Shown one piece after another: positions 18,788-63,125 of a stretch of DNA of 64,000 nucleotides. The position numbers and the translations under genes are program-made. A model generated the notes under the pieces. The model was not told the DNA's origin, ran no database searches, and saw only the letters and a program-made list of their open reading frames with translations. Position 1 is the stretch's first letter. Every line of letters starts with the position of its first letter. The stretch is from Leptogranulimonas caecicola (GTDB lineage Bacteria > Actinomycetota > Coriobacteriia > Coriobacteriales > Atopobiaceae), in the NCBI RefSeq assembly GCF_023168405.1, contig NZ_AP025285.1, forward strand, positions 1,610,001 through 1,674,000, given 5' to 3'.

Positions 18788-19714
18788 TCATTCCGCCTCT
18801 CGCGCCGCGCGCGCAGCCCGCACTTTGTCGCGCAGCCACACCCAGCCGTTGCTCACCAGCACGGCCATAAAAATCAGCACAAAGCCGCTCACTACGCGAC
18901 CGTTCAACACTTCATGACCCGCCAATACCGAGAAGAACACCCCAAAAGGCGACTCCAGCGAGGCTAGCAGCGACCCCTCAGCCGGTGGAACGCGCGTAAA
19001 CGCGTAATTCATCATCGTCAGGCACACAAACGAGCACATCACGCCAAAGTACGCCAGAGAGCCAAACAGCTCGGGAGTCCACACATTGGCGGCAGGTACC
19101 GGCTCAAACAGCGCGATCGCTCCAGAAGCCACGGTCATGAACACAAACTGCCAGGCTGTAAGTGCCCACACGTCCAGCTCTGCGCCGCGGCGCGACACCT
19201 CTACCAGCTGCAGCGCATACAGAAGCGCGCAAAACACCGTCAGCAGGTCGCCGGGGTTGATGGGCAGTCCCTGGTCCAATGCCACCAGCGCAAGCCCACC
19301 AGAGCACATCACTGCGGCCACCAGATCGTAACGATGGGGCTTTCCCATGCCCAGCACCCAGGCGATGAAGGGCACCATCACGCAGTAGCTGCCGGTGATA
19401 AAGGAAGCCTTGCCCGGCGTCGTCATGGTGAGCCCCACCGTCTGCACGGCGTAGCCGCCCCATTCCAGCACGCCCAGCCATAGGCCAACGCCCACCGTGC
19501 GCCTATCCAAATGCGCCCGCACCTGCTTCCAAAACGCTGTCATCGTCAGCACCGCCGCAATGCCAAATCGAAGCATGAGCAGCCAAAACACCGGCAGCGA
19601 CTCGGTGGCGTCCTTCATCATGAACATGGAAGATCCCCAGATAAGCGCGCAGGCCACCAGCATAAGCTTGGCCGCCCCAGGAGTCCGCAATGTCTTTTTC
19701 AGCCTTGCGAGCAC
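18788..19714 (-). CDS. EamA-family (DMT) transporter, second copy
   Basis: 308 residues, ten helices, two EamA repeats (CALIWGSSMFMMKDATESLP near the start, VPPAEGSLLASLESPFGVFFSVLAGHE in the second repeat). The tail is Arg/Ala-rich. GTG start at 19712-19714 with AGGTG upstream. It is only distantly similar to the transporter at 15570. Substrate unknown. An inverted repeat and a 14-bp tandem repeat lie in its upstream region. Confidence 0.88.
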   Translation of the reverse strand: MLARLKKTLRTPGAAKLMLVACALIWGSSMFMMKDATESLPVFWLLMLRFGIAAVLTMTAFWKQVRAHLDRRTVGVGLWLGVLEWGGYAVQTVGLTMTTPGKASFITGSYCVMVPFIAWVLGMGKPHRYDLVAAVMCSGGLALVALDQGLPINPGDLLTVFCALLYALQLVEVSRRGAELDVWALTAWQFVFMTVASGAIALFEPVPAANVWTPELFGSLAYFGVMCSFVCLTMMNYAFTRVPPAEGSLLASLESPFGVFFSVLAGHEVLNGRVVSGFVLIFMAVLVSNGWVWLRDKVRAARAAREAE

Positions 19715-20475: not shown

Positions 20476-20571
20476 TCTCTTGCCGAGAAACCCCACCATC
20501 TCAACTCGGCGCCAATCCCTCATCTAAATCCCTACCTCAGTAGGGAACACCATCATCAGTACTACAAGATG

Positions 20572-20599
20572 GGATCATCCCCGCGTTTCAGGGAACACC
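20572..20599 (-). repeat. Lone degenerate type I-E-like CRISPR repeat
   Basis: 28 bases beginning GGATCATCCCCGC and ending GGGAACACC match the ends of the type I-E repeats at 21339-21488, but the inner palindrome is broken. It lies about 770 bases beyond the surviving array and may be a relic of a longer array. Confidence 0.5.
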
Positions 20600-20808
20600 G
20601 ATTCGCTCATGAGGATTCTCATGTATTCATTAGTATAAATCGCCGCCAAGGTATAAATCGCCACCAAGACCAACTCCCCGCAGCAAATTACAGCCTTCAG
20701 CGTCACCATTAGCCACGCACTCAAGCATGCAGGCCGGTTCCTCAACCTTCTTAATACTCGTGTCGACCTTAATAAACCCTCTTGGTCTTGTTAGCTTGTG
20801 TTTTACTT

Positions 20809-20886
20809 ATCCATCCGCCTTTGCGATATAGTGAGTTCGAAGGTGTTCGCCCCTGGGACAGGCTCCGAGGCAGGCGAACACCTTTT
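20809..20886 (+). ncRNA. Hairpin element A, candidate small RNA
   Basis: A TATAGT box (20827-20832), with TTACTT 18 bases upstream, precedes AAGGTGTTCGCC, a 21-base loop CCTGGGACAGGCTCCGAGGC-A and GGCGAACACC-TTTT. The 10- to 12-bp stem ends in a T run, giving a transcript of about 50 nt. Element B at 21288 has the same loop and a different but still paired stem. Function unknown. Confidence 0.5.
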
Positions 20887-21271: not shown

Positions 21272-21335
21272 TTGGATATACTTAAGCAGCGGTCTTTGCC
21301 CTTGGGATAGGATCCGAGGAGGTAAAGATCGCTTT
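21272..21335 (+). ncRNA. Hairpin element B, candidate small RNA
   Basis: TATACT (21276-21281) precedes GCGGTCTTTGCC, a loop CTTGGGATAGGATCCGAGGA, then GGTAAAGATCGC-TTTT. The 12-bp stem has two G-T pairs. Compared with element A the loop is conserved while the stem differs with pairing kept. It ends 4 bases from the last CRISPR repeat. On the opposite strand it could instead form a hairpin after the array, but there it lacks a T run. Confidence 0.5.
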
Positions 21336-21338
21336 TCA

Positions 21339-21488
21339 AGAGCATTCCCGCATGTGCGGGGAGCACCGTTCTTCTTGGCTGTATACGTCATAGTAGAGCG
21401 GATCATCCCTGCATGTGCGGGGAGCACTCCTCGGCTTTTTGCACCTTCGTTATGCCAGGGGGATCATCCCCGCATGTGCGGGGAGCGC
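21339..21488 (-). CRISPR. Remnant type I-E CRISPR array, three repeats and two spacers
   Basis: Repeats of 28 bases at 21339-21366, 21400-21427 and 21461-21488 have an exact 61-base period and two 33-base spacers. The + strand form starts GGATCATCCCCGC and ends GCGGGGAGCAC, so the usual orientation (GTGCTCCCCGC...) is on the minus strand, the same as cas3. The repeat at 21339 has four mismatches, as expected at the trailer end. The repeat at 21461 is fused to the truncated cas3 frame. No leader, cas1 or cas2 is present, so it cannot acquire spacers on its own. Confidence 0.9.
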
Positions 21489-22760
21489 TAAACCGCGTTT
21501 GCGCCCGCCAAACCACTGGTGCGCAACGAGCATCTCCTCGGTGGGTTTGTTATTTGATGTTTGATCTCCCATGGTTCCGGGCTTCCATTTGGGAAGCGCG
21601 CGGAAGCTTTCATCCAGCGCGGCTTTGCTGTGAAGTAGATGCAGATCCTGGGGTCCTTCGGGACATTGATCGTGAAGCAAATCGTCTAGCCAGGATTCGA
21701 CGCGGTCGAACATGGCATTTGAGGTTGCTTGGGTAGGCAAAAGATAGGCAATGCCGCTTTGGCCAAACTTGTGGGCGAGGATCTCGGCGCCTAGGAGTGA
21801 GGCTTCTGTCTTACCACAGCCCATGGGTGCCTCAATGATCATGAGGCCAGGTGCATCCATTGCTGTAGCTGCGGTTATAGTAGCGAGCTGTACTGAGTTG
21901 AGCTTGGCCCCTGCAGGAAGCGATGGGAATCTGCGATGAAAAAGCGTGTTGGGAGCAAGGTCTTCCTCGGCAAACTCAATGGCTTTAGGAAGCCCAAGAT
22001 ATTGCCAGGCCTCTGCTGCACGTTGCTGCAACTCTCCTAAAGAATTCACTGATTGAACCAACGGGAAGAGCTCCGTGTTGGAAGCGACCCAGTCAGCCAT
22101 GATTTCTATTGCGGTGAGCAGCACCTCTATAGCAGGGGATACAGAAGTCGCAAAGAGCTTTTTTGCCACTTCAGGGCCAAGATATGCTTCAAATGTCGCA
22201 TTTAACAGCTCTTCTTGAGTAGCACGCCAAAGCCCTGTGCCCAACACCTCAGACTCAAAGGTATGAATGTCTTTCAAATCCTTTGTGCTGGGATATATGC
22301 CGTGATGGCCACCAATGATCGAAGCAATAGTCTGATTGCCATTGGGATATCCCTGTTGACTTTCGAGCCACTCTCCAAATAGCACTTGCCCCAAGAAGGC
22401 ATGAGGCGGCCGATCCACTGGCGTTATCGCGGGGAAACCTGCATTCAAATCTCTTTCCCATAAGTCTCTTAGATACCTATTGTTTTGAAAGGCAGGCGTT
22501 GCTTTACCAATATCATGATTTGAAACTATCCACGCTACTACGCACTGAGCATCTTGTTTTGTGAGCCCTAAAGAATTGGCGATGGTAGTTTTGACGCTCT
22601 CAGACAAATAATCCCGCCACACTAGCCTGGATACCTCGGCACTATCAAAAAGATGCACGTAGAGAGGCTCCCAAGACAGCCGGTCTTCTCCCGATCCAGT
22701 CTTTGCCCACAGCGCTTTAGCCTGATCTGACAATGACTCAATGACGTGATCCCCACCCAT
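21450..22760 (-). pseudogene. cas3: Truncated CRISPR-associated helicase/nuclease Cas3
   Basis: 436 residues, about half a type I-E Cas3. The HD nuclease domain is intact at motif level: His36, HD at 82-83 (SNHDIGK) and GGHHG at 150-154. Helicase motif I is APMGCGKT (311-318) and Ia is LLPTQATSNA. The sequence follows the family up to GGRKRG (418-423) and then switches to LALPAHAGMIP, a translated CRISPR repeat, before stopping. DExH and the C-terminal helicase domain are absent. A deletion joining cas3 to the array would explain this and the missing Cascade, cas1 and cas2. Unwinding cannot work; HD activity might persist. Confidence 0.9.
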
Positions 22761-62226: not shown

Positions 62227-62636
62227 TTCCTTGCCGAGAAGCCCTCGCAACCGCTCATTGATCAAGCCCGTTGAGCCCATGGCCCAACGGGCTTTCTTTT
62301 TAGGCAAGCGAAGATCCATACCTACAGAAACTGCCTGCGAGTGAACCGTTAAAGGAACGCACAGGAATACCACGCAGATAAATGGCACAGCCAGTTCTGA
62401 TGAAATAGAACATATAGGAACTAAGACGTCTTACGACCCAGAAGGTTATTTAGCTCTTTAATGGGCGCTTAGGGCAAGTGCGAAGATAGGGCTCTTGCGA
62501 AAGATCCGGTACGTTCGCACCATAAATCGGTGATTCATGCTCATATCTTTATTGAGCATGAATCGAACACTATCTATGACACCAATCGATATGCCCCATA
62601 TTGATAGCGTCTATTTGTATGCAACAATATGTTACA
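62227..62636. other. Intergenic region, possible type I-C CRISPR leader
   Basis: After the pyk terminator (62264-62301) comes about 335 bases of AT-rich DNA before the lone repeat. It contains a 12-bp inverted repeat (GATTCATGCTCA at 62532-62543 and its complement at 62553-62564). An AT-rich stretch on this side of a repeat is where a type I-C leader would be. No gene. Confidence 0.5.
62264..62301 (+). terminator. Rho-independent terminator of pyk
   Basis: AAGCCCGTTG (62264-62273) and CAACGGGCTT (62285-62294) followed by TCTTTTT. A TGCCGAGAA copy (62232-62240) lies between stop and hairpin. Confidence 0.9.
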
Positions 62637-62669
62637 GTCGCTCCCCTCACGGGGAGCGTGGGTTGAAAC
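62637..62669 (+). CRISPR. Single type I-C CRISPR repeat
   Basis: 33 bases, starting GTCGCTCCCC, with the CGCTCCCC...GGGGAGCG palindrome, and ending GTGGGTTGAAAC. This is the typical type I-C repeat. No second copy and no cas genes occur in the window. The base after it is the first base of the HNH gene's stop codon. Confidence 0.85.
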
Positions 62670-63125
62670 TTACCAGCGCTCAGGCGTCAGAGCCACGCTG
62701 GTTTGCAGCTCACGAGTAAAGCCCACGCGCTCATGGACAACGTTGTGCGCGTAGTGAGAGAGCGGGATGAGGTTTCGCACCACTTGTCCTGTGTGCTTGT
62801 CCATGGCCCACTCGCTCAAGGCGTAGCCCGGAGAGACGTTTGCCCTCAGCACATGGTGGACGGTGGTGGCTGGAACATACTTGGCCGGGGCCTCATAAAG
62901 CTCTGCGATGGACTCGCCGTGAGCTTGCTCCAACACTTTCTTCCTCAGCCGTCTCCAGGCAGGCGACCTGTAGAAGTTCCTAAGGCATCCTTCGGTCTCC
63001 AACATGTGCGCCAGCTTGCGGGCCAAATCCGCATCATAGCAAGGGACGATCAAGGGAGGGGGGCCATAGAACCTCGCAGCCCAAATTGCATCAATGGAAT
63101 TCTGAGGATTCTGGGACAAGGCCAT
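62670..63125 (-). CDS. Phage-type HNH endonuclease-like protein, metal-site Cys lost
   Basis: 151 residues. FYRSPAWRRLRKKVLEQAHGE, ATTVHHVLRANVSPGYAL and RNLIPLSHYAHNVVH follow the pattern of HNH nucleases encoded beside phage terminases, and it ends with LTPERW as they often do. The usual zinc Cys pair after HGE is absent (HGESIAEL) and later CxxC is LSHYAH, so structure may rely on other residues or be lost. ATG 63123-63125 with AGGCGG upstream. Its TAA directly abuts the CRISPR repeat. Confidence 0.7.
   Translation of the reverse strand: MALSQNPQNSIDAIWAARFYGPPPLIVPCYDADLARKLAHMLETEGCLRNFYRSPAWRRLRKKVLEQAHGESIAELYEAPAKYVPATTVHHVLRANVSPGYALSEWAMDKHTGQVVRNLIPLSHYAHNVVHERVGFTRELQTSVALTPERW

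Follow-up and report, generated by a model that had tools for sequence, protein, structure and literature searches.

A type I-E CRISPR–Cas locus very probably reduced by deletion to a cas3 fragment fused in frame to a CRISPR repeat

In the chromosome of Leptogranulimonas caecicola a gene that begins as cas3 ends inside a CRISPR array, which raises the question of what became of the genes that lie between the two in related genomes. The open reading frame in question encodes 436 amino acids and runs from position 22760 to position 21450 on the minus strand of the window, the whole 64,000-nucleotide stretch of DNA that was analyzed. Its frame reads HQWFGGRKRGL, then ALPAHAGMIPLA and a stop codon, so that cas3 passes into the CRISPR repeat in frame and the last approximately 12 residues derive from repeat and spacer sequence. 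The initial annotation of this DNA attributed the arrangement to one deletion within a type I-E locus that removed Cascade, cas1–cas2, and the leader.

The cas3-derived portion comprises the 5' part of a type I-E cas3 gene, codons 1 to about 424 (21489 to 22760, minus strand), and terminates at about 21489–21491. It contains the HD nuclease domain and helicase motifs I (EAPMGCGKTE) and Ia (LPTQATSNAMF) and ends before motif II. The N-terminal nuclease domain expected of type I-E Cas3 is present with its HD residues (Cas3_HD profile PF18019, E 3.5e-43, residues 18–232 of the fusion), and the start of the helicase gives a partial DEAD/cas3_core match (E 1.1e-9, residues 290–360). A complete SF2 helicase core with motifs I–VI is absent, as is the C-terminal domain; only motifs I and Ia are found, and the sequence ends before the DEVH box. 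PADLOC assigns the fusion most strongly to Cas3e, the Cas3 of type I-E systems (E 1.8e-76), and among solved structures it aligns best to Cas3 4q2c (E 2.8e-44). These matches agree with the initial annotation, which had recognized the HD domain and motifs I–Ia in the frame.

The cas3 fragment is well preserved as far as it goes. When compared with 34 intact homologues, it keeps 60 of the 62 near-invariant alignment columns, while the intact homologues themselves retain 91–100% of these columns in the same leave-one-out count. All seven candidate HD metal-site residues are kept (H36, H82, D83, H120, H152, H153, and D223), and the Walker A residues are also in place. Two residues that are fully invariant in the 34 intact homologues are changed, W51Y and N383D. 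Judged from sequence, a fragment without visible erosion fits a recent loss and does not imply function, and it is possible that the HD nuclease half is still made, as the initial annotation had suggested. A scan of the minus strand for consensus promoters returned nothing, a result that is uninformative either way, and no relatives of the fusion protein were found in viral contigs.

The array that follows lies on the same minus strand and consists of three 28-nt repeats at an exact 61-nt spacing with only two 33-nt spacers. Repeat 1 (GCGCTCCCCGCACATGCGGGGATGATCC, 21461–21488) sits at the junction and carries one mismatch, GCG for GTG. Spacer 1 (21428–21460) holds the stop codon of the fusion at 21450–21452 and is followed by repeat 2 (GTGCTCCCCGCACATGCAGGGATGATCC, 21400–21427), spacer 2 (21367–21399), and repeat 3 (GTGCTCCCCGCACATGCGGGAATGCTCT, 21339–21366). 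Repeat 3 is degenerate at its 3' end and marks the leader-distal end of the array, where a degenerate last repeat is usual. Palindromic 28-nt repeats with 32–33-nt spacers are those of a type I-E array; a leader adjoining the first repeat is missing, and the cas3 coding sequence directly abuts repeat 1. Across the genome the repeat is found solely at 21339–21488 and reversed-pattern controls gave zero matches, which excludes a chance repeat match. The read-through from cas3 into a repeat that the initial annotation described is thus an in-frame joint, with the refinement that the cas3 part ends at about 21489–21491 and that the array retains two spacers and has lost its leader end.

The two spacers have no targets in phages or viral contigs (20-nt exact cores only) or in the bacterium's own genome. 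Plasmid matches are weak and come mostly from Streptomyces (E 0.2 or worse), and a search of Rfam near the relic gave nothing above threshold. An isolated, degenerate I-E-like repeat (GTGTTCCCTGAAACGCGGGGATGATCC, 20/28 matches) lies further along the same strand at 20572–20599; it probably survives from an array that was older or longer and suggests that the array once extended further. Off-site integration of spacers into cas3 does not account for the three repeats, because they match the repeats in intact arrays of the family and do not copy any cas3 sequence. A CreTA system, whose degenerate-repeat guide RNA represses an adjacent toxin RNA through Cascade, was set aside because the genome has no Cascade.

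The genes that would make the locus work are missing from the whole genome, a single contig of 2.0 Mb that is 99.3% complete. A profile search for Cas1 (PF01867) gave no match there and found the gene in all four of the other genomes searched. A 2108-amino-acid query, assembled from a family member's Cas3 C-terminal half, Cse1, Cas7, Cas5, Cas6, and Cas2e with Cse2 left out, returned nothing in the genome at E values up to 1 and, in the control genome G093, six strong hits. The I-E Cascade genes covered by the query (cse1, cas7, cas5, and cas6; cse2 lay outside it) are therefore absent, as are I-E cas1 and cas2, and these empty genome-wide searches indicate that the missing genes have not merely been relocated. 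Their absence both beside the joint and elsewhere in the genome supports loss.

Intact type I-E loci in relatives show what the ancestral order would have been. In three members of the family (G052, G093, and G096) and in Collinsella (L052), the layout of open reading frames is cas3-cse1-cse2-cas7-cas5-cas6-cas1-cas2-array on one strand, and in G093 every gene of the intact locus is named by NCBIfam. These loci support both the I-E assignment and the shared strand of cas3 and the array that had been proposed from the sequence alone. In six of seven loci, the first repeat of a downstream, same-strand array lies 8566, 8455, 8621, 8301, 8524, and 7865 bases from the equivalent cas3 codon. The seventh, L062, was read as 1765 bases on account of a stray repeat-like match inside the operon; its main array begins at 19595, about 8.2 kb from the equivalent codon. 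The identical 27-nt core of the relic's repeat occurs in two genomes of the same family, in ten copies in G060 and three in G067, and these arrays lie approximately 8.4 kb downstream of the cas3 match on the same strand, with an I-E cas3 that looks intact. The intact family loci (G060, G067, G052, G093, and G096) are thus like the relic in the N-terminal half of Cas3e, in orientation, and in repeat family, and in G060 and G067 the repeat core is exactly shared. The relic differs in having nothing of what lies between cas3 codon ~424 and the array. As a separate observation on these loci, Cas2e in the intact G093 locus is fused to a DnaQ-like 3'–5' exonuclease domain (L091:18273-19145).

It is very probable that the fusion is a relic of a type I-E CRISPR–Cas locus whose middle was lost through a deletion of about 8 kb. 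The same gene order, the ~8-kb distance, and the identical repeat core in relatives indicate that the starting point was an ordinary I-E locus of the family. The deletion, larger than ~8 kb if many leader-proximal repeats are gone, would have joined cas3 codon ~424 to a repeat near the leader-distal end. It would have removed the Cas3 helicase core and C terminus, cse1, cse2, cas7, cas5, cas6, cas1, cas2, the leader, and the newer spacers. Illegitimate or short-homology recombination may have formed the joint, and the deletion would then have become fixed through drift or because CRISPR immunity was selected against. What remains is nonfunctional as an immune system because it is without Cascade for target binding, Cas6 for transcript processing, Cas1–Cas2 for adaptation, and everything in Cas3 from motif II onward. 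The two remaining I-E spacers are fossils.

The details of the joint can be followed only so far. At the equivalent residues, relatives mostly read GRK(R/K)-(G/A)-(L/M)-L-(A/S), compared with GRKRG-L-A-L-P in the fusion. The closest intact cas3 orthologues share 35–48% protein identity with the fragment. Comparison with intact relatives, which the initial annotation had expected to locate both breakpoints, recovered the gene order and a distance of 7.9–8.6 kb, but it does not place the breakpoints to the base because even the best intact cas3 matches at no more than 48% identity. Since repeat 1 starts with GCG and the other two with GTG, the joint falls no more than a few bases from the repeat edge. 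The GCTCC proposed in the initial annotation may have provided microhomology there. The ends and size of the deletion are inferred from more distant relatives because no strain was found in which this locus is still intact, which is a point against the deletion account; G001, the closest relative and the one further member of the genus compared, lacks type I-E and carries different genes there.

What is established is how cas3 meets the array, which genes are missing, and what ancestral order relatives preserve, and a single event would be the parsimonious way to connect these; of the proposal that one deletion took Cascade, cas1–cas2, and the leader, the deletion joint and the genome-wide absence of the genes stand, and the number of events is a matter of parsimony only. 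Stepwise loss, in which separate deletions or rearrangements preceded a present joint that is only the last of them, is a less likely course that still deserves some weight. The isolated and more diverged repeat at 20572–20599 suggests that the far end eroded separately, and a type I-C locus in the same genome (described below) needed at least two changes, an operon deletion and an array collapse. Against this, the I-E joint is clean and in frame, without filler or insertion-sequence debris, and one deletion requires the fewest events. A selected self-deletion, driven by a spacer that targeted the bacterium's own chromosome or a useful mobile element, is compatible with the deletion account and is likewise a minority prospect as its cause. 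Both CRISPR systems are gone from one genome, and such selection has been shown in Staphylococcus (PMC3784566), with inactivated loci common in the Bacillus cereus group (PMC7242445). However, neither I-E spacer, nor any I-C spacer of G001, has a significant match in the bacterium's own genome, and the newer, telling spacers are gone.

Two further readings would deny that a system was simply lost, and both are improbable. Assemblies are well known to collapse at CRISPR repeats, so the 8 kb might be present in the organism and missing only from the assembly. The genome is nonetheless one nearly complete contig, the missing genes are unique sequence found nowhere in it, and a collapse between repeats could not make a joint inside cas3; an assembly error is highly improbable. 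If the truncated Cas3 had been kept as a working HD nuclease in some new, Cascade-independent role, this would explain why 424 codons stay open with the seven metal-site residues and nearly all near-invariant positions in place, and HD-only Cas3'' proteins are known (model TIGR01596). Yet W51Y and N383D alter otherwise invariant positions, the state of the fragment fits recent loss equally well, and neither a partner gene nor a conserved copy elsewhere was found, which leaves retention very unlikely. The more specific proposal that the leaderless fusion is alive, with the HD-nuclease fragment and the array cotranscribed from the cas3 promoter and the fragment kept for such a nuclease role, is hardly to be expected.

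Deletion of the middle of the locus also accords with processes known elsewhere. Experiments in Staphylococcus have shown that CRISPR loci are deleted when cells are selected to accept an incoming plasmid (PMC3784566), and in the B. cereus group naturally inactivated loci are common (PMC7242445). The Staphylococcus epidermidis escapers resemble the relic in the deletion of whole CRISPR–Cas function and in the loss of spacers through repeat recombination. Their large deletions involved insertion sequences, long homology, or cassette excision, whereas the relic has a clean joint inside cas3 and no such element (PMC3784566). The defective I-C and I-B loci of the B. cereus group are likewise natural remnants with subsets of cas genes deleted, but several cas genes survive in those described (cas5, cas8, and cas7 among them), in contrast to the half of cas3 and three repeats seen here (PMC7242445). 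CRISPR loss by deletion is already known, and the I-E relic is a clean new example of it, not a new system. Its value is that one joint accounts for the loss of a whole operon, a clear record of a discarded immune system.

A second scar, 41 kb from the first in the same window, records the loss of a type I-C system. Comparison by blastn with the intact locus of G001, whose flanks share ~92–97% nucleotide identity with those of the window, reveals a type I-C locus reduced to the cas2 3' end, a leader, and one repeat (62397–62675, plus strand; repeat at 62637–62669). In G001 the locus is complete, with cas3, cas5c, cas8c, cas7c, cas4, cas1, and cas2 (L126) and roughly 42 repeats in its array; the window has nothing between the corresponding flanks but the last cas2 codons (IEHIGTKTSYDPEGYLAL), the leader, and the single repeat. 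The rest of the I-C locus, both cas genes and array, is absent from the bacterium's own genome. Two bases (AT) are common to both ends of the left joint. The cas operon was deleted and the array has collapsed to one repeat, as recombination between repeats would give. Provided that G001 retains the ancestral condition, the I-C locus was lost after the two diverged. The I-C loss is separate from the I-E loss in the same lineage, and as a parallel case it favors the deletion account of the I-E relic. With both systems gone, CRISPR immunity appears to have been given up by this bacterium. A second CRISPR loss, of a system still intact in the sister G001, suggests a lineage that is giving up CRISPR, and the cause of the loss (self-targeting, mobile elements, or cost) becomes testable by comparing sister strains.

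The I-E position is flanked by a mihF-like gene and cutC, and between the same genes G001 has a 9.3-kb insert (L125:5259-14610). The insert encodes a type II restriction enzyme and methylase, an IetA–IetS pair, and, by eye, a transposase-like gene. The I-E site thus behaves as a defense hotspot, given that G001 carries restriction-modification and IetAS there.

Several minor elements were noted around these loci. On the minus strand, a second, weaker repeat-like hairpin (GTGTTCCCTACTGAGGTAGGGAT) follows the isolated I-E-like repeat (20519–20600 for the pair) and has a counterpart in G001; these elements may be what is left of an older array that both genomes inherited. Strong hairpins at 20843–20884 and 21290–21337 (about −31 and −29 kcal/mol with flanks) have different stems and a common core, TGGGAYAGGMTCCGAGG, and each is followed by TTTT on the plus strand; they are absent from Rfam, and blast found no further copy in the genome. 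An isolated type I-C-like repeat also lies apart from the array in both genomes, at G000:C1:1677627-1677666, beyond the window, and at L126:17711 in G001.
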